Shown here one piece after another: positions 38,978 to 52,082 of a DNA stretch of 64,000 bases (its first letter is position 1; every line of letters begins with the position of its first letter). The DNA comes from Gammaproteobacteria bacterium. GTDB taxonomy: Bacteria > Pseudomonadota > Gammaproteobacteria > HK1. The notes under the pieces were generated by a model. It did no database searches. It worked only from the letters and a program-made list of their open reading frames with translations, and was not told the origin of the DNA. Position numbers and translations under genes: made by a program. Where the stretch lies: assembly GCA_021773635.1 (NCBI GenBank), contig JAJFJV010000019.1, positions 124,001 through 188,000 of the forward strand. The letters run 5' to 3'.

Positions 38978-40804
38978 ATGGTTCGCACACTGAAAAACTT
39001 GCTGAATCTGATCTGGCTGCTCGCCTTGGTACAAGGAGCAGCGGCAGAATCGGCAAGCAGCCACGGTTTATCCCTGCACCGCGAGCTGAAATATCCCGCC
39101 GGCTTCAGTCATCTGGAATATGTCAATCCCGAGGCCCCCAAGGGTGGAGAGTTGCGCCTTGCAGAGATCGGCACCTTCGACAGCCTTAATCCCTTCATTC
39201 TCAAGGGCATCGCTCCCGCCGGCATCTCCGGTCTGCATGACACGCTGACCTATAACAGCAACGATGAGGCCTTTTCCGAATACGGCCTTATCGCTGAAAG
39301 CATCGAGGTCGCGCCGGATCATTCCTGGGTCATCTTCAATCTCAGGTCCGAGGCCCGCTTTCACGATGGCAGCCCCATCACCGCTACCGATGTCATCTTC
39401 AGCTTCGAGGCCCTGAAGGAACGGGGACACCCCTTTTACCGCTCCTACTACGCCCCGGTGGAAAAAGCTGAAGCCCTTGGCCCACGCAAGGTGAAGTTTT
39501 ATTTTCAGGTGCGCAACAACCGTGAACTGCCCCTAACCATCGGCCAGATGCCGGTGCTGTCAGAAAAATACTGGCGCAATCACGACTTTGGCAAAACCAC
39601 CCTTGACGCCCCGGTCGGTAGTGGTCCTTACCGGATTGACTCGGTGGAGCCCGGGCGCTTTGTGCGCTACCAACGGGTGGCCGACTATTGGGGGGCAAAG
39701 CTGCCGGTCAACGTCGGGCGACACAACTTCGATACCATTCGCTACGATTATTACCGTGATTCCACCGTGGCACTGGAGGCCTTCAAGGCCGGGGAATACA
39801 GCCTGCGCCTGGAGAATACCTCCAAGCTCTGGGCCACCGGCTACACCGGCCCGGCACTGGAGTCGGGAAAAATGCGCCAGGAGGAAATCTTTCACCAGCG
39901 CCCCACCGGCATGCAGGGCTTCGTCTACAACACCCGACGAGCGCTGTTTAGCGACCGCCGGGTACGCGAGGCTTTGGCCTACGCCTTCGATTTCGAATGG
40001 ACCAACCGCAATCTCTTTTATGGCGCCTACACCCGCACCAATAGCTATTTTTCAAACTCTGAACTGGCCGCCCCGGGGCTTCCCGAAGGTGAAGAACTAA
40101 GGACTCTGGAGGGCTACCGCGGCAAAATCCCGGATGAGCTCTTCAGCCGTGCCTATACCGTCCCCAGCAGCACCGGCAGGAATGGAGTGCGCCGTAATTT
40201 GCGCACCGCGGCACGCCTCCTGCGTAAAGCCGGGTGGGTGGTACGCGACCAGCGTCTGGTGCACGCAAAAACCGGGCAGCCCTTTAGCTTTGAGGTACTG
40301 CTGGTCAGCCCCGCCTTCGAACGCGTGGTGCTGCCCTTCAAACGCAATCTCGCTCGTCTGGGCATTGAAATGCGGGTGCGCACGGTGGACAGCGCCCAAT
40401 ACCAAAAGCGCCTCGACAACTTTGATTTTGACATGAGCGTATACGTCTGGGGCCAATCCCTGTCACCGGGCAACGAGCAACAGGACTTCTGGTCAGCCAA
40501 GGCGGCGAATATACCGGGCAGTCGTAACCTCGCAGGTGTCCAGGATCCGGTTGTCGACGAACTCATCGCGCAACTGGTCAGCTCTCCCGATCGCAAAACC
40601 CTGATCCAGCGCACCCGCGCCCTGGATCGAGTGCTGCTGTGGGGCTACTACGTCATTCCCCACTGGCATATCCGCAGCTTCCGTGTCGCCTATTGGGATA
40701 TCTTTGGTCGCCCCGGGGTAATTCCCAAATATGCCCTCGGCCTCGATACCTGGTGGCTGGACTCCGCCAAGGCCGCCGCGCTGGAAACACAGCCCGCTAA
40801 ATGA
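38978..40804 (+). CDS. yejA: Oligopeptide-type ABC substrate-binding protein YejA
   Basis: A 608-residue periplasmic binding protein of the SBP family 5 (OppA/YejA) with signal peptide ([15 protein letters not shown]). YejA-type features are [20 protein letters not shown] near the mature start, [11 protein letters not shown], and a C-terminal [20 protein letters not shown]. It binds peptides for the YejBEF importer; related systems import peptide antibiotics such as microcin C. yejB overlaps its last four bases, but yejE and yejF are displaced by ~7.5 kb. Confidence 0.94.
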
Positions 40805-41898
40805 GCGCCTATATCCTCCGCCGTGTGCTGCTCATGATCCCCACCCTGCTGGGCATCATGGTGCTGAACTTCGCCATCGTCCAGGCCGCCCCCGGGGGCC
40901 CGGTAGAACGGCTCATCGCCAGCCTGCGGGGACACGATGTAGCCGCCACCGCGCGCCTCGGCGGCAGTGGCCACGGCGATGCTGCCCGTAAAACCACGGT
41001 CACCTCCGAATCCAGCAGCCGTTATCGCGGTGCCCAGGGCATTGATCCCGAGCTGATAGCCGAGATCGAAAAGCTCTACGGCTTCGACAAGCCCGCCCAT
41101 GAGCGCTTTCTGAAGATGATGGGGAATTACCTGGTCTTCGAATTCGGCGACAGCTTTTATCGCGACCGTTCGGTGGTGGATCTGGTGCTGGAAAAGATGC
41201 CGGTGTCCATCAGCCTTGGCCTCTGGACCACCCTGCTGGTTTACCTCATCTCCATCCCACTAGGCATTGCCAAGGCGGTACGGGATGGCTCCAGCTTTGA
41301 TGTCTGGAGCAGCGGCCTAATTATCGTCGGCTACGCGATTCCAGGCTTCCTCTTCGCGGTGCTGCTCATCGTGCTATTTGCCGGCGGCAGTTATCTGGAC
41401 TGGTTTCCCTTGCGCGGACTGGTCTCGGAAAACTGGAGCGAGTTGAGCACGGGCGCCCAGATACTGGATTACTTCTGGCACATCACCCTGCCAGTACTGG
41501 CACTGGTAATCAGCGGCTTTGCCGGGCTCACCATGCTCACCAAAAACTCCTTCCTCGAAGAGATCAACAAACAATACGTGGTCACCGCCCGCGCCAAGGG
41601 CGTGGATGAACACCGGGTGCTCTATGGCCACGTATTCCGCAATGCCATGCTCATCGTCGTCGCCGGCTTTCCCAGCGCCTTCATCGGCATCCTCTTCACC
41701 GGCGCCCTGCTCATCGAGGTGATCTTCTCCCTAGACGGCCTCGGCCTGCTGGGCTTCGAGGCAGCGGTCAACCGCGACTACCCGGTAATGTTCGGCACCC
41801 TGTACTTTTTCACCCTGCTCGGCCTGCTCCTGAACCTCGCCGGCGACCTGATGTACATGGTGATCGATCCACGTATCGATTTTGAAACGCGGGGCTAG
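40801..41898 (+). CDS. yejB: Peptide ABC permease YejB
   Basis: A 365-residue permease with six hydrophobic helices. [20 protein letters not shown] opens the protein, and the EAA loop [29 protein letters not shown] precedes the C-terminal helices. A long periplasmic loop after helix 1 (~residues 30-110) is normal for YejB. In E. coli yejE follows directly. Here the next gene on this strand is an unrelated AT-rich gene, and yejE lies at 49442. Confidence 0.95.
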
Positions 41899-41965
41899 GG
41901 CAACTCCTTTCCTGGTATCCGTTAAACTGGGGAAGATTCACACCTACTTTTCCATGGCATCAGAA

Positions 41966-41988
41966 AAATAAGTGCGTCCCCTTTTCAT
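41966..41988. repeat. REP-like fragment at the left edge of the yej insert
   Basis: AAATAAGTGCGTCCCCTTTT lies 68 bases after the yejB stop. From memory, this phrase recurs in intergenic repeats of gammaproteobacteria associated with REP-type tyrosine transposases. Only one copy was seen here and no transposase is present, so the call rests on resemblance. Confidence 0.4.
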
Positions 41989-42049
41989 TAATCACTAAAC
42001 GAGAAACTTTTCCACATAAATCCTGTTAGAACTAATAGGGAATATATTT

Positions 42050-42820
42050 ATGGAGTTTGATGGATTAGATAAAATAGCAGCTAAAGGACAGCACCTTCTT
42101 GACGGCCATGATTCAGTTGATACACATAGATCTTTCACTAACTGGGTAAGTGACGTTTCCCGTTGGCTGAATGATCTATATCCTGATTCCGGACTATCTG
42201 CAAAATGGGTGGCGCAAGGCAACTCCCCCTTAGTTGTAGCCGGTAGCTACCATGATGATTCATTAACTTGGGCAAGATTCAGAACGATAGTTGAGGGCCG
42301 ATTACGGTGGCTTGGTAATCTACCTTTAGAAGTGAAAATAAACCAGTTATTAGCGCCTGCCGTAGCTCAAAATGAAGCAAAACAAACAGGAAGAAAAGAA
42401 ATAAAACTAAATACAACATCTAGAGCATACGTAGATCCCGATCGCATTAGTGAGTTAAAAGCCATTTCCTCCGATGATTTCGACCTGAGAAAGTTAGTTC
42501 GATTGTGTGAAGAATTAAATATTTGTTTTTCTGGTGAATGCTACATATCAATGCTTATGCTAACCAGAGCAATTCTTGATCATATTCCACCAATTTTTAA
42601 TTGCTCCAATGCCACTGAGATAACTAATAATTATTCTGGAGGCAGATCTTTTAAAGCAGCAATGCAACATCTCAATAATACTTCAAGAAAAATATCAGAT
42701 TACTATCTGCACTCACAGATAAAAAACTCAGAGATGTTACCTAACGTAACACAGATCGATTTTTCAAATGATTTGGATTTTTTGCTTGCAGAAATAGGGC
42801 GCATTGTAGGTAAAACATGA
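42050..42820 (+). CDS. AT-rich orphan protein of unknown function
   Basis: A 256-residue soluble protein with no signal peptide and no membrane segment. AGGGA lies eight bases before the ATG. The codon and base use is clearly AT-rich, unlike all neighbours, a sign of recent acquisition. Two parts are visible: a helical N-terminal region (~1-115) and a C-terminal region (~125-256) with RLCEELNICFSGECYISMLML, RAILDHIPPIF, NNYSGGRSFKAAMQHLNN and FSNDLDFLLAEI. To my recall, such C-terminal regions occur in scattered uncharacterised proteins of genomic islands. No catalytic motif is recognised, and no function is assigned. It sits between yejB and the end of the efflux operon. Confidence 0.8.
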   Translation: MEFDGLDKIAAKGQHLLDGHDSVDTHRSFTNWVSDVSRWLNDLYPDSGLSAKWVAQGNSPLVVAGSYHDDSLTWARFRTIVEGRLRWLGNLPLEVKINQLLAPAVAQNEAKQTGRKEIKLNTTSRAYVDPDRISELKAISSDDFDLRKLVRLCEELNICFSGECYISMLMLTRAILDHIPPIFNCSNATEITNNYSGGRSFKAAMQHLNNTSRKISDYYLHSQIKNSEMLPNVTQIDFSNDLDFLLAEIGRIVGKT

Positions 42821-42875
42821 AGTCTAATTTAATCATTAGGCATTAGAAGAGAATGCACAAGCTTACGAATTAAGG

Positions 42876-45800
42876 TTAGACAGACTCCATCGCCTTGCGC
42901 ATGGCACGAAAAGGCCGTGTCAGGTCCTCAAGAATCAGGTAGTTAATTGGCACCAGCAGCAAGGTAATGAAAGTGGCGAAGAGCACGCCGAAGCCCAGCG
43001 ACACTGCCATGGGAATCAGGAATTGGGCCTGGGTGGATTTCTCGAAAATAAGCGGAGTCAGACCGACAAAAGTGGTTAGCGAGGTCAGCACTACGGCACG
43101 GAAACGGGCGACCCCGGCGGCGCGTATCGCATCCTCTGTAGCTACCCCTTTCGCCCGCTGACGATTGATGTAATCCACCAGTACCAGGCTGTCGTTTACC
43201 ACCACACCCGTTAGCGCCAGCATGCCCATCAGGCTCATGACGCTGAGGCTCATGCCGAGCAACATGTGGCCGAGTACCGCACCCGCGGCACCGAAGGGAA
43301 TCACCGACATCACGATAAAGGGCTGCAGGTAGGATTTGAACGGAATCGCCAGCAAACCGTAGATGATAAAGAGCACGAAACCCAGCCCCAGGCCCAGGCT
43401 GCGGAAGGTTTCCCGCTGTTCCCGGGCCTCACCCTCCAGGCCGTAGCGAACATCCGGGTAACGGCCCTCGATGCTGGCGAGAAAATCTAGCAGATCCGTC
43501 TTGATCGCCTCGATATTGGCGCTTTCCTTGTTCACATCGGCGGTCACATCCACTACTCGCCTGCGGTCAAGCCGTTTGATGCGTGCATAGCTACGACCAA
43601 TGCTGGCGCTGGCCACTTCGGTGAAGGGTACCTCGGCACCGGTCGGGGTCCGGATACGCATGGATTCCAGATCGGCCAGGGAATGACGCTCGTGGCGCGG
43701 ATAGCGCACCATCACCCGCACATCGTCACGACCGCGCTGTATCCGCTGCGCCTCCTCACCGAAGAAGGCCTGGCGCACTTGGCGTGCCAGATGGGAAGCA
43801 CTGAGCCCCAACAACTCCGCCTCGGGCCGGATGGCGAGTTGCACCTCTTCCTTGCCCTCCTCGAAGCTGTCCTCCACATCGAAGACCCCGGGATATTCCC
43901 GCAAGCGGGTCTTGAGCTCCTCCGCCATGGCCGCCAGCTGGGTAAAATTATTGCCGGAAAGCTGCACGTCCAGCGGCGCACCACCCCGCCCGATTTCGGC
44001 ACGGAAGGTGAGTGATTCTGCACCGGGAATAATGCCTATAGCCTGCCGCCATTCACGCACCAGCTCACGACTGGTCACTGCCACGGTGCGCTGCTCGGGG
44101 GAGACAATTTCAAAGCGGACGCGGCCAATATGGGAGACACCGGCACCGGTCCCGCCCGCCGACCCGCTCAGTGCCAGTATGTCCTTGACCACACTCTGTC
44201 CAGTAGCCGGGTCCACGTATTTTTCACGGATGGTCTCAGCGGCATGGACGATCCGTGCCACCTGTCGCTGGGTGATCTCAAAGGGGGTGCCCGCGGGCAG
44301 TACCAGCGTTGCCCGCGCGGTTTCGCTCTGCACCCGGGGAAAAAATACGAAATGAATGGAATTACTGACGATCAAGCCACCGACAATGATAAATACCGCC
44401 AGAAACAGGGAGAGGCTGAAATACCGCTGCCGCAGGGCGGCGGCGAGTAGCGGCTGATAGAAACGGATAATGGCCTGCTCAAGGCCATGGGCGATGCGCT
44501 GCTGGGCACAGGTAAAACGGTTTTCCTTGCCTCTCACATTCAGATGGGAGAGATGCGCGGGCAGGATTAGCTTGGACTCCACCAGCGAGAACAGCAGCAC
44601 CGGAATCACGATCATCGGAATCTGCGCAAAGATCTTGCCGCGTATCCCTTCGATCATCAGCAGCGGCAGGAAGGCCGCCACCGTGGTTAACACGCCAAAG
44701 GTCACCGGGCGTGCCACTTCCAGGGTACCGCGTACCACCGCATCGCTGCCGGGCTCGCCACGTTTGAGATGGGTATAGATATTTTCGCCGGTGACGATAG
44801 CATCATCCACCACCACACCCAGGACCAGAATAAAGGCAAACAGGCTGACGATATTGATGGTGATCCCCAGCATCGGCAAAAAGGCCAACGCCCCGGTAAA
44901 AGCCACAGGGATGCCGATGCACACCCAAAGCGCCACGGAAAAACGCAGAAAAACCGCCAGCAGCAGGAAAATGAGCAAGCCGCCCTGGGCGGCACTTCTC
45001 AGCAGGGTATTGAGGCGTGATTTAACGATGCGGGAGCGGTCCCGCCAATAGCTCAGGCTCACCCCGGGCGGGAAACGTGTACTGGCGCTGGCGATGTAGT
45101 CCTTGACCTTGTTGGCCAGCTCGATGGCATTTTGATCCCCCACCCGATAGACCTCGACCATGACCCCCGGTTTGCCGTTAAAACGCACCCGGATGGGGTT
45201 TTCCTCGAAGCCATCGCGAATCTCGGCGATATCGCCCAGGGTCAGGCGGGTACCATCGTCGCGGGTGAGCACCACGATATCGGCAAAATCCGCGGCCACA
45301 TAGGCTTGCTCCTTGGTGCGCAGGAGGATCTCTCCCCCCCGGGTCTTGATGCTGCCGGCGGAGAGATCCAGCGAGGCGCGGCGCACTGCATCCGCTACGG
45401 TCTCGAAGCTGAGCCCATGGGTGTGGAGCGTGTTTTCGGCCAACTCGATGGCAATCTCATAGGGCCGCACCGCCTCCAGTGCCACTTGGGTAATGCCGGG
45501 AATCGCTGAGATATCATCGCGTACCCGTTCACCGTACTGGCGCAGTTCCAGCTCGGGCAGGTCCCCGGAGACGACAACGCTAATCACCTCCCGCCGTCGC
45601 GCCGCCACACTGTAGATCGGACGCTCGGTTTCCGCCGGAAAGGTGCTGATGGCATCGACACGATTTTTGACATCATCTAACAGATTGCGCGATGAACCCC
45701 CCTTCTCTACCTCGATGGTGATCCTGGCGAATCCCTCGGCGGCCTCGGTGCGTAATTCCTTGATACCCTGCAGGTCGTAAACCGCCTCCTCCACCCGCAG

Positions 45801-45989
45801 TACCACCCCCTCCTCCACATCCGTCGGCGTCGCACCGCGAAAGGGAATCTGGATATTCACAATATCGAGCTCGAACTCCGGGAACACCTCCAGCGGGGTG
45901 CGCAGGATGAGTGCGTACAACCCCAGCAACACGATCACCGCCATCAGCAGGTTGGCGGCGACCCCATTGCGAGCGAACCAGGCGATCAC
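42876..45989 (-). CDS. RND-family efflux permease
   Basis: A 1037-residue inner-membrane RND transporter with 12 helices and two large periplasmic loops. MIAWFARNGVAANLLMAVIVLLG opens the protein, and helix 4 carries the proton-relay pair in LGVVVDDAIVTGENIY. The second half repeats the pattern (MSLMGMLALTGVVVNDSLVLVDYINR), with Asn-Asp in place of Asp-Asp as expected. It is closer to the AcrB/MexB-like drug and general branch than to metal CusA; the substrate is not readable. It is the last gene of the TetR-OMF-MFP-RND operon. Confidence 0.93.
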   Translation of the reverse strand: MIAWFARNGVAANLLMAVIVLLGLYALILRTPLEVFPEFELDIVNIQIPFRGATPTDVEEGVVLRVEEAVYDLQGIKELRTEAAEGFARITIEVEKGGSSRNLLDDVKNRVDAISTFPAETERPIYSVAARRREVISVVVSGDLPELELRQYGERVRDDISAIPGITQVALEAVRPYEIAIELAENTLHTHGLSFETVADAVRRASLDLSAGSIKTRGGEILLRTKEQAYVAADFADIVVLTRDDGTRLTLGDIAEIRDGFEENPIRVRFNGKPGVMVEVYRVGDQNAIELANKVKDYIASASTRFPPGVSLSYWRDRSRIVKSRLNTLLRSAAQGGLLIFLLLAVFLRFSVALWVCIGIPVAFTGALAFLPMLGITINIVSLFAFILVLGVVVDDAIVTGENIYTHLKRGEPGSDAVVRGTLEVARPVTFGVLTTVAAFLPLLMIEGIRGKIFAQIPMIVIPVLLFSLVESKLILPAHLSHLNVRGKENRFTCAQQRIAHGLEQAIIRFYQPLLAAALRQRYFSLSLFLAVFIIVGGLIVSNSIHFVFFPRVQSETARATLVLPAGTPFEITQRQVARIVHAAETIREKYVDPATGQSVVKDILALSGSAGGTGAGVSHIGRVRFEIVSPEQRTVAVTSRELVREWRQAIGIIPGAESLTFRAEIGRGGAPLDVQLSGNNFTQLAAMAEELKTRLREYPGVFDVEDSFEEGKEEVQLAIRPEAELLGLSASHLARQVRQAFFGEEAQRIQRGRDDVRVMVRYPRHERHSLADLESMRIRTPTGAEVPFTEVASASIGRSYARIKRLDRRRVVDVTADVNKESANIEAIKTDLLDFLASIEGRYPDVRYGLEGEAREQRETFRSLGLGLGFVLFIIYGLLAIPFKSYLQPFIVMSVIPFGAAGAVLGHMLLGMSLSVMSLMGMLALTGVVVNDSLVLVDYINRQRAKGVATEDAIRAAGVARFRAVVLTSLTTFVGLTPLIFEKSTQAQFLIPMAVSLGFGVLFATFITLLLVPINYLILEDLTRPFRAMRKAMESV

Positions 45990-47179
45990 GGATTTTTACC
46001 CGCTGCCGCAACGCTGTTGGGGCGCACTTTGACTCCCTCCATACCACCGCCAAGTGCCGTCAGCACCAGGCGTTCGCCCGCAGCCAGGCCATCAATCACC
46101 ACGACGTTTTCTGCATCCTGCCAAAGGACCTTCACCGTCCGGCTCTGAATACGATCATCCATATCCACCAGTAACAGCCGGCCACCGGCACGTAGCGCCG
46201 CCCGCGGGATGACAAATACCTGCCTGAATTTACGTCCCTCGATGGCCGCTTCCACAAACTGTCCCAACTTGAGCGGTGGTCGCCCCACGGGTCCCTTGCC
46301 ATAGGGATCATCCACCTGCGCCACCACGAATAGCTGGCGGCTCTGGGTATCGATAGCCCCCTCGGTGCGCACCACCCGACCGGCCCAGACATGGGTTTTG
46401 CTGCCGATGCGCGCACTCAGCCACACCCTGGGTTGCGGCACGGCCTCCGCGCCCGATCCATTGCCGCGATAGCGTTCCGGCAGATCGACAAACTCAAGCT
46501 GGCGGTTACTCAGCGGCAATCGAATCTCGGCATAATCCACCGCATATATCCGCGCCAACACCGTGCCCGGGGCCACATACTGGGCAACATCGATACCCTG
46601 CTCCAACACCCGACCGGCATAGGGCGCGCGGATGACGGTGCGTTCAAGGTTCAGCCGCGCCCGCAACAGCCGTGCCTCAGCGGATTTAATCAATGCCCGG
46701 GCGCTGGCAAGTTGCGGCTTGCGCAACACCAGCGGGTCTGGCTCGGCGGACTCACCGAGACGCCGCCATTCGTCCGCGGCCTGAGCTGCCCGCGCCTGCT
46801 CCTCCACCCCCGTGGCACGCGCCTGTTCCAGATTGGCCTCGGCCACCATCACCTCGGCGCGATAGTCCCGCGGATCGATTTCCAGCAGCACATCCCCGGC
46901 CTCAAAAAACTCGCCCGCACGCAGCTGCGGCGAGATTCGCACCACGGTGCCGGATATCTCGGGAATCAGAGTGCTTTCGGTACGCGCACGTACCGTGCCC
47001 CGGGTTTGTAGCCGTAGCGGGTAATCACTGCGTACCAGCAACAGGACATCCACTGCCGTGAGCACCGGACGCACCACTTGCCGTGTGGGCTTTTCCTTTG
47101 TCGATACGTTATAGGCGGCAATCACTCCGGCCGTCACCAGCACCAGCACGGGCAGCAGGAATTTGAATAGCTTTTTCAT
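45986..47179 (-). CDS. RND periplasmic adaptor (membrane fusion protein)
   Basis: A 397-residue adaptor with an N-terminal membrane anchor (LFKFLLPVLVLVTAGVIAAY). A lipoyl half-motif (TESTLIPEISGTVVRIS) is followed by an alpha-hairpin of ~90 residues rich in Ala, Glu and Arg (AEVMVAEANLEQARATG). The second lipoyl half is TVIRAPYAGRVLEQGIDVAQYVAPG, then beta-barrel and membrane-proximal domains. It bridges the RND pump and the outer-membrane factor. It overlaps both neighbours by four bases. Confidence 0.93.
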   Translation of the reverse strand: MKKLFKFLLPVLVLVTAGVIAAYNVSTKEKPTRQVVRPVLTAVDVLLLVRSDYPLRLQTRGTVRARTESTLIPEISGTVVRISPQLRAGEFFEAGDVLLEIDPRDYRAEVMVAEANLEQARATGVEEQARAAQAADEWRRLGESAEPDPLVLRKPQLASARALIKSAEARLLRARLNLERTVIRAPYAGRVLEQGIDVAQYVAPGTVLARIYAVDYAEIRLPLSNRQLEFVDLPERYRGNGSGAEAVPQPRVWLSARIGSKTHVWAGRVVRTEGAIDTQSRQLFVVAQVDDPYGKGPVGRPPLKLGQFVEAAIEGRKFRQVFVIPRAALRAGGRLLLVDMDDRIQSRTVKVLWQDAENVVVIDGLAAGERLVLTALGGGMEGVKVRPNSVAAAGKNP

Positions 47180-48609
47180 GGGTGTTTACCGGGATGAAGC
47201 GATGGTTTAGTGGTCTTCATGTAGGTGGCAACATCACTGGCCGGGGCAAATTCACCACCGAGCGCCAGATAGAGCGAAACACGATTCTGTAATCTCCGAT
47301 TCTGGATCGCCAGCAAGGCACTGTGGGCCTGAAAGGCGCGTCGACGCGCCTCCAGCCAGGTGATCAGATCGATGAGGCCACTGCGATAACGCTTGAGGGC
47401 CAGCTCCACCGCCGCGTCCAGCTCCTTGGCCTCATTGCGCAATGCCTGCTCCTGGCCGCCCAGCAGATCCTCGGCAGCCAATGCCGTCTCAACTTCACGG
47501 AAAGCCACCAACACCACCTGTGCATAATCGCTAAGCGCCACCGCGCTTTCCGAACGGGCTAACTCCCGGGCAGCGCTCAACCGTCCTCCCTGAAATATCG
47601 GTGCAGTGAGATTGGCGGCGATATTCCATAACAAAGCATTGAAATCCAGCAGGCGACGCAGCTCATTGCTGCTAAGGCCACCCGCTCCACTGAGGGAGAT
47701 ATTGGGCAGACGGTTCTTGCGCGCTGCATTGAAACGCTCGTCGCTGGCGGCGAGCCGAAGCGCCGCGGCCCGTACGTCCGGGCGGCGTCCAAGGATTTCC
47801 GCAGGCAGGCCCGCCGGCACCTGGCGCTTGAGTACCGGCAATTGCACGGCCAGTTCCAGTTCTGCCCGCGGGTAGCGACCCAGCAAGACCTCAAGAATCC
47901 TCAGGGTCGCGTCGTCGGTCACCCGGCGTGCGGCCAACTGTGCCTCGGCACCGGCCACATTGGCGCGTTCCAGGCGTACGTCGAGGGCGCTGCCGAGACC
48001 CCGTCGATAGGCCTGCTCCACAATTTGCAGATTTTCACTGAAATTCTGTGCCGTGTGACGCGCCAGTTCCACCTGTTGCCGGCTCTCCACCGCATCAAAC
48101 CACGCGGTGGCCACATTGGCGGCCAGGGAAAGCCGCGCCGCCGCCAAATCCTTCTCGCTGGCCCTGGCATCCAGCACCGCGGCCCGGGTGCGATGAGCCA
48201 GGGTTCCCCAGATATCGGCCTCCCAGGCCGCGCTAAGCGAGCCATCGAAACTATTTTCAGTCAGCCGCCCCCTGGCCACTGGCGCACCACGGCGGCTGGC
48301 AGATCCCGTGGCACCCAGTTGCACCCCCTGATCCGCGGCCACCACATCGGCCTGTGCCCGTGCCATCCGCAAGCGTGCCGCCGCACTGCGAAGATCGAAG
48401 TTGGTATCCACCGCTTCCCGAATCAGGGCCTCAAGCAGCGGCGCCTCAAAATCAGCAAGCCAGGGCTGCGGTGCAGTGGAAAGCACCTGTTGCTGCGACC
48501 ACTGTGATGGAATTTTGAGCCCGCTTTGGCTGAGATCATTCTGTAACGGGAGCAAATTGCTGCAACCACTCATCGTCAGCAACGCCACAGCAACAATCCA
48601 GCCCTTCAT
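47176..48609 (-). CDS. Outer-membrane efflux lipoprotein (NodT/OprM family)
   Basis: A 477-residue TolC-like channel with lipobox LLTMSGC (signal MKGWIVAVALLTMSGC). Two homologous halves of long helices are present: IREAVDTNFDLRSAAARLRMARAQADVVAADQ, then LGRRPDVRAAALRLAASDERFNAARKNRLPNISLSG. The latter is characteristic of NodT-type outer-membrane factors. It completes the tripartite pump with the adaptor and RND permease encoded downstream. Confidence 0.93.
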   Translation of the reverse strand: MKGWIVAVALLTMSGCSNLLPLQNDLSQSGLKIPSQWSQQQVLSTAPQPWLADFEAPLLEALIREAVDTNFDLRSAAARLRMARAQADVVAADQGVQLGATGSASRRGAPVARGRLTENSFDGSLSAAWEADIWGTLAHRTRAAVLDARASEKDLAAARLSLAANVATAWFDAVESRQQVELARHTAQNFSENLQIVEQAYRRGLGSALDVRLERANVAGAEAQLAARRVTDDATLRILEVLLGRYPRAELELAVQLPVLKRQVPAGLPAEILGRRPDVRAAALRLAASDERFNAARKNRLPNISLSGAGGLSSNELRRLLDFNALLWNIAANLTAPIFQGGRLSAARELARSESAVALSDYAQVVLVAFREVETALAAEDLLGGQEQALRNEAKELDAAVELALKRYRSGLIDLITWLEARRRAFQAHSALLAIQNRRLQNRVSLYLALGGEFAPASDVATYMKTTKPSLHPGKHP

Positions 48610-49265
48610 GACGGCCCACCGCCACTAGACGCACGTATCCCGGCCGCGGTGAAACGCGTGATGTGAGCCAGCGTATCTTCCAGCCCTTCAGTTGGCCCGG
48701 CCCGCTCACCCAGACGTTGCATATGCAATACGTGGACAAGTTGGGAAACCAGGGAATGGCAACACAATTCCAGGGATTCGGCCCGGAGCCCCGGGCAGCT
48801 GATTTTCAGAGCATCCATCAGCGCGCCCAGCGTCGGTCCGAACAAACGCTCACGAATCAGGGGTACCGGCAGCTGGCCATCAACCATCTCACGCATCAGC
48901 AGCAACATGCTTTCGCGGCCGTGGGCACCGCCCCGCAGGGGTTCAAGAAAAGCCTCGGAAAAGGTCGCTATGATCCGCTCCAGCTCCACATCTCCCTCTT
49001 TCATCAGTGCTCTGAGAGCGCCGACCCGGCGTTCAGTCAACTCCGTAAAGCGTTGTTCAAAAACCGCCTCATACAACTTTTGCTTGCCACCAAAGTGGTA
49101 GGTAACGGCGGACACATTGCATCCTACCCGCGCGGTAATGTCACGTACCGAGGTACCTCGATAACCACGCTCGGAAAAACAACCCGCAGCCACCGCCAGC
49201 AGGCGGGCGCGGGTAGATTCACTGTCTCTTGTTTTGGCTACGGAGGTTTCGGCCACCAGCCTCAC
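48606..49265 (-). CDS. TetR-family repressor (CecR-like) of the efflux operon
   Basis: A 219-residue regulator. The N-terminal helix-turn-helix (residues ~15-60) contains TRARLLAVAAGCFSERGYRGTSVRDITARVGCNVSAVTYHFGGKQKLYEAVF. The C-terminal domain resembles that of CecR/YbiH (DUF1956). The gene overlaps the outer-membrane factor gene by four bases, so it is the first gene of an autoregulated operon. A perfect palindrome lies 30 bases upstream. The start could be the GTG at 49265 or the GTG four codons later. Confidence 0.92.
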   Translation of the reverse strand: MRLVAETSVAKTRDSESTRARLLAVAAGCFSERGYRGTSVRDITARVGCNVSAVTYHFGGKQKLYEAVFEQRFTELTERRVGALRALMKEGDVELERIIATFSEAFLEPLRGGAHGRESMLLLMREMVDGQLPVPLIRERLFGPTLGALMDALKISCPGLRAESLELCCHSLVSQLVHVLHMQRLGERAGPTEGLEDTLAHITRFTAAGIRASSGGGPS

Positions 49266-49295
49266 CCTGAGGTTATGTCACCAACCGTCAGTTTC

Positions 49296-49318
49296 AAACA
49301 AACGTTTGTTTATTTCAA
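49296..49318 (-). promoter_or_regulatory. Candidate promoter and TetR operator of the efflux operon
   Basis: A perfect 16-bp palindrome AAACAAACGTTTGTTT (49296-49311) lies 30 bases upstream of the tetR start. On the minus strand TTGAAA (49318-49313) could be the -35 box, 17 bases before a weak -10 (GAAACT, 49295-49290). The palindrome would then fill the spacer exactly. Binding by the adjacent TetR is inferred. Confidence 0.7.
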
Positions 49319-49441
49319 GGTTGGCATGGCATCGCGGTCAAGAGCCGAAGCCGTTATCCTATCGTCGCTTGTTGGCTCTATTGCCGTTTAGATAGTACGG
49401 CTATCCACAACTACTCCGGATTTGGACTATAAATCGTGATC

Positions 49442-50479
49442 ATGGCCCTTAGCCCCATCAACCGGCGCCGCTTGTATCTGTTCCGTAGCAACCGGCGGGG
49501 CTATTACTCGCTGTGGATCTTCTGCGCACTATTTTTTATCAGCCTGTTTGCTGAACTGGTCGCGAATGACCGGCCGCTGCTGCTGGGTTACGAAGGCGAG
49601 CTCTATGTGCCGGCATTAACGAGTTATCCGGAGACCGTTTTCGGTGGTGAATTCGAGACCGAGGCCGACTACCGTGACCCCTATGTACACGAACTCATCA
49701 CCGCCAAGGGCTGGATCCTCTGGCCTCTCATCCGCTATCGCCACGACACCATTAACCTCGACTTGCCGGTTCCTGCTCCCGCCCCGCCATCCACGGAGAA
49801 CTGGCTCGGCACCGATGATCAGGGACGGGATATCCTTGCCCGAGTGCTCTATGGCTTCCGTATCTCGGTACTCTTCGGTCTCGCCCTGACCATCCTGAGT
49901 TCCATCATCGGCATCATCGCCGGGGCCGTGCAGGGCTATTTTGGCGGCTGGACCGATCTGCTGTTCCAGCGTTTCATCGAAATCTGGTCCGGGCTACCGG
50001 TACTCTATTTGCTGATCATCCTGGCGAGCATCGTGGAACCCAATTTCTGGTGGCTACTCGGCCTGCTACTGGTATTTAGCTGGACCGCACTGGTAGGCGT
50101 GGTACGTGCCGAGTTCCTGCGTGCACGAAATTTCGAGTATGTCCGCGCCGCCCGGGCGCTGGGGGTCAACCAATGGACCACCATGTTCCGCCATCTGCTA
50201 CCCAACGCCATGGTGGCAACCCTGACCTTTATGCCCTTCATCCTCAACGGCTCCATCACCACCCTCACCTCGCTGGATTTTCTCGGCTTTGGCTTGCCCC
50301 CGGGCTCGGCGTCACTGGGCGAGGTGCTGGCCCAGGGCAAGGCCAATTTGCATGCACCGTGGATTGGGGTCACTGCCTTCTGCGTGCTCGCCTTCACCCT
50401 GAGCCTGCTGATCTTTATCGGCGAGGCGGCACGCGATGCCTTTGACCCACGTAAAAGCGGGGAGTCCCAAAATGCCTGA
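49442..50479 (+). CDS. yejE: Peptide ABC permease YejE
   Basis: A 345-residue permease with six hydrophobic helices. MALSPINRRRLYLFRSNRRGYYSLWIF opens the protein as in YejE. The long periplasmic loop has LVANDRPLLLGYEGELYVP, and GTDDQGRDILARVLYGFRISVLFG starts the conserved membrane domain. The EAA loop is FEYVRAARALGVNQWTTMFRHLLPNAM. The ATG at 49442 gives the normal N-terminus (a GTG at 49436 is in frame). It is separated from yejB by the efflux operon and orphan gene, so it needs its own promoter or long read-through. Confidence 0.94.
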   Translation: MALSPINRRRLYLFRSNRRGYYSLWIFCALFFISLFAELVANDRPLLLGYEGELYVPALTSYPETVFGGEFETEADYRDPYVHELITAKGWILWPLIRYRHDTINLDLPVPAPAPPSTENWLGTDDQGRDILARVLYGFRISVLFGLALTILSSIIGIIAGAVQGYFGGWTDLLFQRFIEIWSGLPVLYLLIILASIVEPNFWWLLGLLLVFSWTALVGVVRAEFLRARNFEYVRAARALGVNQWTTMFRHLLPNAMVATLTFMPFILNGSITTLTSLDFLGFGLPPGSASLGEVLAQGKANLHAPWIGVTAFCVLAFTLSLLIFIGEAARDAFDPRKSGESQNA

Positions 50480-52082
50480 ACAAAGCTTGCTTGAGATCGA
50501 AAATCTCTCGGTGTCCTTTGGCTCCGGGACACAGGAGGTCAAAGCGGTGCGCGGTGCCTCCCTGCGCGTGGAACGCGGCGAGATCGTCGCCCTGGTGGGC
50601 GAGAGTGGCTCCGGCAAAACCGTTACCGCCCTGTCCGTGACCCAGCTACTGCCCTATCCCCCGGCCCATCATCCATCGGGCAGTATTCGTTATGCCGATG
50701 AAGAGATTATTGGTGCTCCACAGCAACAGCTGCGCCAGTTGCGCGGCGGCAAGATCAGCATGATTTTCCAGGAGCCCATGAGCTCCCTCAATCCTCTACA
50801 CACCATCGCGCGACAAATCGGCGAATCTCTCGCCCTGCACCGTGGTATGAAGGGCAAAGCCGCTCGCGAGCGCATCGTGGAACTGCTGGAACTGGTGGGC
50901 CTGGCGGAGGCGGAAACACGTTTGGGTGCCTTTCCCCATCAATTGTCCGGTGGCCAGCGTCAGCGTGTAATGATCGCCATGGCACTCGCCAACGAGCCCG
51001 ACTTGCTGATCGCCGATGAACCCACCACGGCGCTGGACGTCACTATCCAGGCACAGATTCTCGCGCTCCTGAAAGAATTAAATCAGCGTCTCGATATGGC
51101 CATCCTGTTGATTACCCATGATCTGGCCATCGTGCGCAAACTGGCCCAGCGAGTCTACGTTATGCGCGAGGGCGAAGTGGTGGAGGATGCCGAGGTGGAG
51201 ACCCTGTTTACCCAACCCTCACATCCCTATACCCGTGCCCTGCTCACCGCTGAACCCAAGGGTGCGCCGGTACCGGCGGCGGGGGATGCCCCCACCCTCC
51301 TCTCCGCCGATGATCTGCGCGTGTGGTTCCCCCTCAAAACGGGATTGCTGCGCCGGGTCACGGGACACGTGAAGGCGGTGGATGGCATCAGCCTGCGTAT
51401 CCGCGAAGGTCATACGGTGGGCGTGGTTGGTGAGAGCGGCTCGGGCAAGACGACTCTGGGGCTTGCGCTGCTCAGGCTGGAACAAAGTCGCGGCAACATC
51501 GAATTTCAGGGGCAGGAAATCCAGGATCTCCGTGCCCACGCCCTGCGCCCGCTACGCCGCGAAATGCAGATAGTCTTTCAGGACCCTTACGGCAGCCTCA
51601 ATCCACGCATGTCCATCGGCCAGATCATCGAGGAGGGCCTGCTCGTTCATCGCATCGGCGACACCGCCCGCGAACGCGATGCACTGGTGATACAGGCACT
51701 GGAGGAAGTAGGCCTGGATCCGGCCAGCCGTGAACGCTATCCACACGAATTTTCCGGCGGCCAACGCCAGCGCGTTGCCATAGCCCGCGCCATGATCCTC
51801 AAGCCCCGTCTGGTGATCCTTGATGAACCCACCTCGGCCCTCGATGTCTCGGTACAGGCCCAAATCGTCGATCTGTTGCGTGAACTACAGGCCCGCCATG
51901 GCCTCGCCTACCTGTTCATCAGCCACGACCTCAAGGTGGTGCGGGCGCTGAGTGATGAACTGATCGTCATGCATGAGGGCAAGGTAGTGGAACAGGGGTC
52001 AGCTGAGCAGATATTCAACGATCCCGACAATGCCTATACTCGCCGCCTGCTGGCTGCCGCCTTCGATCTGGATGCGGCATAA
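50472..52082 (+). CDS. yejF: Peptide ABC ATPase YejF (two ATP-binding domains)
   Basis: A 536-residue fused ATPase. Domain 1 (~1-260): Walker [13 protein letters not shown], signature [15 protein letters not shown], Walker [13 protein letters not shown]. Domain 2 (~275-536): [39 protein letters not shown]. Both sites look intact. The ATG at 50472 overlaps the yejE stop by eight bases, so YejE and YejF remain coupled even though the operon is split upstream. Confidence 0.95.

Follow-up and report, generated by a model that had tools for sequence, protein, structure and literature searches.

A genus-fixed efflux operon between yejAB and yejEF in a gammaproteobacterial lineage, with a later insertion slot at its border

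Locus properties and annotation

Here we describe the yej locus within a 64,000-nucleotide stretch of gammaproteobacterial DNA (the window), in which the genes of a YejABEF-type ABC importer stand apart as yejAB (38978-41898) and yejEF (49442-52082), separated by an AT-rich open reading frame and a TetR-OMF-MFP-RND efflux operon on the opposite strand. A first-pass annotation had placed the end of yejAB at 41898 and the start of yejEF at 49442, with an AT-rich gene and a complete efflux operon between them, and both the open reading frames and the protein families agree with it. The features are as follows.

38978..40804, plus strand: yejA, periplasmic substrate-binding protein of SBP family 5 (Pfam SBP_bac_5, E 1.7e-69; dN/dS about 0.08 in the genus)
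40801..41898, plus strand: yejB, permease (NCBIfam NF011712, 571 bits, cut-off 445; dN/dS 0.04-0.065)
41899..42875, no strand: slot insert of 977 bp, from the yejB stop to the RND stop, private to the genome of the window by junction comparison; GC drops to 36-41%
42050..42820, plus strand: orf256, AT-rich, with a conserved C-terminal domain (about aa 125-256), of a mobilome-associated family
42876..45989, minus strand: RND efflux permease, AcrB/MdtB superfamily (Pfam ACR_tran, E 1.4e-164)
45986..47179, minus strand: MFP, membrane-fusion (periplasmic adaptor) protein (TIGR01730, 137.6 bits, cut-off 94.9)
47176..48609, minus strand: OMF, outer-membrane efflux channel, NodT family (TIGR01845, 294.7 bits, cut-off 210)
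48606..49265, minus strand: TetR regulator, PsrA-like (Pfam TetR_N; best NCBIfam model PsrA NF053516, E 6e-19, below cut-off)
49266..49441, no strand: TetR/yejE divergent intergenic region, 176 bp (three-species alignment)
49293..49313, no strand: TTCAAACAAACGTTTGTTTAT, PsrA-type palindrome CAAAC-N4-GTTTG, invariant across the three species
49442..50479, plus strand: yejE, permease (NF011596, 497.7 bits, cut-off 439; dN/dS about 0.05)
50436..52082, plus strand: yejF, duplicated ATP-binding protein (NF011713, E 3e-230, 765 bits, below the equivalog cut-off of 834)

The yejA and yejB genes overlap by 4 bp and the yejE and yejF genes overlap as called; the true start of YejF is probably at 50472, judged from the sister genome G002. 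An internal stop in the YejF of that genome proved to be an artefact of an over-long start call. NF011713 was by far the best model for YejF in the NCBIfam profile search despite the score of 765 against 834 bits. Since the ends of the TetR, OMF, MFP and RND genes overlap, they were taken as one operon, with transcription running from TetR towards RND. Profile searches found the tripartite set of RND permease, adaptor and outer-membrane channel to be complete. Within the proton relay of the RND protein the Asp pair of TM4 is present (GVVVDDAI), and the Lys position of TM10, equivalent to AcrB-K940, is Asn. This Asn at the Lys position of MdtB/AcrB (GVVVNDSLVLVDY) is common to most of the RND subfamily relatives checked. 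Composition sets orf256 apart, with a GC content of 38% and a GC3 of 29%, against 57-62% and 61-79% in the other genes of the locus. No tRNA genes were found across the window.

Comparison with related genomes

The genus was sampled through three species, namely the genome of the window (G000), G001 (L031) and G002, whose locus was obtained by joining L032 to L123 by coordinates, with yejB placed separately. Further yej loci were gathered from close relatives and 80 named genome contigs; those with both yejB and yejE placeable formed an outgroup set of 86 loci (84 distinct, as L035/L064 and L038/L120 are duplicate records of one contig each), picked by similarity to YejE and therefore not a random sample.

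yejABEF is a well-known contiguous operon in enterobacteria, a group to which the organism of the window does not belong. The pump operon sits between yejB and yejE in all three genus genomes, and outside the genus yejB and yejE are contiguous in 86 of 86 loci, which span the family, the class and the Alphaproteobacteria, with a gap of -14 to 307 bp (median 12.5 bp). The contiguous relatives that the first-pass annotation had named as support were thus found, the widest yejB-yejE gap outside the genus being 307 bp. The flank from yejF to sufB is retained in the family outgroups L033, L037 and L038, which have contiguous yej genes, so the split arose by insertion and not by rearrangement. Because the three species share it at a dS of about 0.4-1.2, the insertion of the pump predates their divergence. 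We conclude that the yejABEF split is old, genus-specific and fixed, and that the pump is native in composition. The annotation had also considered that a split shared by all relatives would mark an old, fixed gene order; this holds within the genus (three of three genomes split) and fails beyond it, where the 86 loci are contiguous. A search of the literature on operon splitting returned no relevant precedent.

In many of the alphaproteobacterial loci (L045, L046, L050, L051, L053, L061, L065, L067, L070, L079, L086, L087, L091 and L105) a spacing of about 1.9 kb separates the best YejA match from yejB, as would be expected if a second gene for a binding protein lay between them.

The RND proteins of the genus are 94-96% identical to one another and up to 62% identical to proteins elsewhere; members of the subfamily at up to this level occur in other gammaproteobacterial families and also in G007 of the same family. 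Where flanking sequence existed, the related pumps usually had the order OMF-MFP-RND, and neither a homologue of the genus TetR beside them nor such a palindrome upstream was found. An origin of the pump from a plasmid was rejected, the nearest plasmid-borne RND proteins being only 35-38% identical.

The insertion slot and orf256

The tail-to-tail junction of yejB and the RND gene forms a slot whose empty and filled states are both visible across the three species. It is empty in G001, where the stop codons of the two genes overlap as CTAA. It holds 977 bp with orf256 in the genome of the window. A different segment of 11,322 bp fills it in G002 (L123:1592-12914), encoding an IS3-type transposase orfA, a PEP-CTERM protein, a TPR phosphodiesterase-like protein, an Asp/Asn hydroxylase, two sulfotransferases, a Gp49/HigB-like gene and a ParD-like gene. 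Inside this 11.3-kb island we observed a pair of inverted repeats of 141 bp that are 97% identical. The orf256 segment is private to the genome of the window, orf256 being absent from both sisters, and the two inserts have no common sequence beyond the gene ends. At neither end of either insert did a target-site duplication rise above background. Nor was there a sign of a tRNA or integrase route, with no tRNA in the window and, as had been reported at first reading, no recombinase in 41899-49441. Neither a duplicated target nor a recombinase accounts for how the pump operon entered. Since the inserts are unrelated and lack a target duplication above background, the slot, lying between convergent genes, looks like a place where DNA can land neutrally.

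Relatives of orf256 were found on 13 plasmids and 7 viral contigs, and searches of 54 further relatives and of 397 additional genomes from the phylum found none; the family is rare and mobilome-associated. No match to orf256 was obtained in Pfam, NCBIfam, PADLOC or PDB sequences, and the PHROGs matches were non-significant only. The conserved part of the protein is its C-terminal domain of about 130 residues (about aa 125-256), which carries an R-x4-H motif (R173-H178), invariant in alignments of four and of seven sequences, and, in most family members, an LH-x2-I(R/K) pattern. A single-sequence structure model was unusable, and the model built from seven sequences was used instead; it is all-helical, with a pLDDT of about 90 around R-x4-H, and gave no significant match to known folds (best Foldseek E 0.4). 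An R-x4-6-H motif in a helical domain, as in HEPN proteins, is thus present, and a HEPN profile or fold match was not obtained. That orf256 may be a HEPN-type nuclease belonging to the mobile gene pool is a lead, not a result. In the family the conserved R-x4-H domain is joined to variable N-termini, and the relatives adjoin genes for relaxase, resolvase, AAA ATPase/helicase and Ser/Thr kinase (both in L157, L158 and L204-L210).

The intervening 7.5 kb are two separate insertions, the pump operon and then the orf256 segment, and not the single insert assumed in the first-pass annotation: only the 977-bp segment is private to the genome of the window, and the pump is present in all three. One recent mobile insert bringing in pump and orf256 together has in its favour that the two adjoin and that the composition of orf256 is foreign, but the same site holds the pump without orf256 in G001 and G002 and the GC3 of the pump is native, so that the sister genomes refute this explanation and leave it practically no probability. 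It is equally far-fetched that the split is ancestral and the contiguous operon elsewhere derived. Every genus member examined (three) does share the split, but the 86 outgroup loci and the enterobacterial operon stand against this view, and no deep-branching relative with the same split was seen. The comparison of gene orders thus identifies the split as derived from a contiguous yejABEF. For the slot, an alternative to two separate gains is that it was filled in the ancestor and that its content was deleted in G001. In yejB and the pump genes G000 stands slightly nearer to G002 than either does to G001, and filling could therefore be a shared state; their inserts, however, share no sequence and the junction in G001 is minimal, and we regard an ancestral filled slot as unlikely.

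The TetR/yejE intergenic region

In the genomes searched no close orthologue of the genus TetR was found outside the genus. The protein aligns over aa 17-215 with PDB 2fbq, which we take to be Pseudomonas aeruginosa PsrA, with similarity along the full length; the PsrA model (Vibrio) is its best NCBIfam match, yet at 68.6 bits against a cut-off of 300. PsrA is the fatty-acid-responsive TetR repressor of Pseudomonas. Its operator consensus has been given as C/GAAAC-N2-4-GTTTG/C (PMC11233452, PMC13104628). The PsrA-type palindrome is the best-conserved element of the 176-bp gap and lies within its one strongly conserved stretch, CAGTTTCAAACAAACGTTTGTTTAT (49289-49313). The consensus match at 49295-49308 is the only one in 64 kb, where 0.19 are expected, and the palindrome is the single best site in each of the three genus genomes. 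Further conserved blocks are ATCGCGGT (49331-49338) and AAGCCGTTATCCTATC (49348-49363); no match to the sigma-70 consensus for a yejE promoter was found in the gap.

In the outgroups yejE lies within a few tens of bases of yejB, and its transcription presumably starts at the yejA promoter. As opposite-strand genes spanning over 6.5 kb separate yejAB from yejEF in the genus, the yejEF promoter there presumably lies in 49266-49441. The conserved site makes it likely, with good confidence, that TetR autorepresses the pump operon; control of yejEF by TetR is possible, and so is a regulatory link between pump and importer through the shared divergent promoter region with its predicted PsrA-type operator. 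This link is more concrete than the one that the first-pass annotation had thought conceivable, between peptide uptake and toxin export, which stays conjectural.

It can only be suggested tentatively, and we would sooner bet against it, that this link goes as far as one PsrA-like repressor governing the pump together with yejEF and so tying the import of peptides or muropeptides to efflux by way of a hydrophobic signal such as a fatty acid. For it speak the invariant, genome-unique palindrome, the conservation of the yejE-side blocks as well, and the fact that only opposite-strand genes precede yejEF, which leaves no other likely upstream promoter. Against it, the predicted operator is nearest the TetR promoter, is separated from the downstream yejE ATG by about 130 bp, and may thus serve only the pump operon, and adjacency by itself could be neutral. 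The still more specific proposal that Yej is a muropeptide importer for wall recycling and that yejEF is also controlled by a PsrA-like repressor sensing a hydrophobic ligand, so that import and efflux would be switched together from one divergent operator, appears improbable.

Selection and transporter function

Comparison of the three genus species, at a dS of 0.4-1.2, put dN/dS at 0.04-0.09 for the four yej genes; the range for TetR together with the pump genes was 0.03-0.14, and no broken genes were seen among yej, pump and TetR. The earlier statement that YejE and YejF are intact is confirmed by these values. As the yej genes are whole and under strong purifying selection, the YejABEF importer probably works, from two transcripts. 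On this sequence evidence both transporters are maintained in the genus.

For the muropeptide permease AmpG, the TIGR00901 model matched nothing in any of the three genus genomes, and scored above cut-off in 11 of 14 other genomes of the family. In the AmpG-less genus genomes NagZ is above cut-off and an Amidase_2 protein (AmpD-type amidase) is present. The lack of AmpG is not exclusive to split yej, since G008 and G009, which also retain yej, likewise give no AmpG match above cut-off. In Agrobacterium tumefaciens YejBEF with YepA replaces AmpG as muropeptide importer, YepA being reportedly exclusive to Alphaproteobacteria (PMC9790009). By analogy, and speculatively, Yej may import muropeptides in the genus, which if true would explain its retention. 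The absence of AmpG thus offers a testable possibility of muropeptide recycling through YejABEF in a gammaproteobacterium.

Discussion

In our best reading, an ordinary genus-fixed insertion put yejEF beside, and possibly under, the PsrA-like repressor of the pump. To this explanation as a whole, consisting of an ancestral pump insertion, a two-promoter yej, PsrA-like control and later gains in the slot, we assign a probability of about 0.8. The TetR-OMF-MFP-RND operon would have entered the short yejB-yejE gap in the genus ancestor in opposite orientation, leaving all yej genes whole. The old promoter would still read yejAB, while read-through to yejEF would have been lost and taken over by a promoter in the TetR/yejE gap, from which the efflux operon would also be read outward. 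The PsrA-like TetR would bind CAAAC-N4-GTTTG and repress its own efflux operon, possibly influencing yejEF. Convergent transcription would stop at the yejB/RND junction and so leave a spot at which insertions are neutral. Foreign DNA of unrelated kinds would later have been gained there: orf256 in the genome of the window, the 11.3-kb island in one sister and nothing in the third species.

The split is real, derived and genus-fixed, with a later insertion slot, and mechanistically ordinary, and it leads to a specific prediction on regulation. The locus is of interest as a dated natural experiment on operon splitting, in which a four-gene ABC importer was cut and both halves stayed intact and under selection, one of them being left beside the predicted operator of a foreign repressor.

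Compared with the YejABEF microcin C/oligopeptide ABC importer, all four proteins are present and YejB and YejE exceed the microcin C permease cut-offs, whereas YejF stays below the YejF equivalog cut-off (765 against 834 bits) and its yejAB and yejEF halves stand 7.5 kb apart, with genes mostly on the opposite strand between them. With tripartite RND systems of the AcrAB-TolC/MdtABC type with a local TetR, the pump shares the TM4 Asp pair and the arrangement of TetR, OMF, adaptor and RND in one operon of overlapping genes; it differs in that Asn replaces the TM10 Lys of MdtB/AcrB, a trait of the wider subfamily, that it lies inside yej and that its TetR is genus-only. Like Pseudomonas PsrA, the genus TetR has, near its own promoter, a site that fits C/GAAAC-N4-GTTTG/C perfectly, but it falls under the NCBIfam cut-off and stands beside an efflux operon and yejEF. 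With regard to the YejBEF-YepA system of Agrobacterium tumefaciens, the genus resembles AmpG-less Alphaproteobacteria in lacking AmpG and having NagZ and an AmpD-type amidase.
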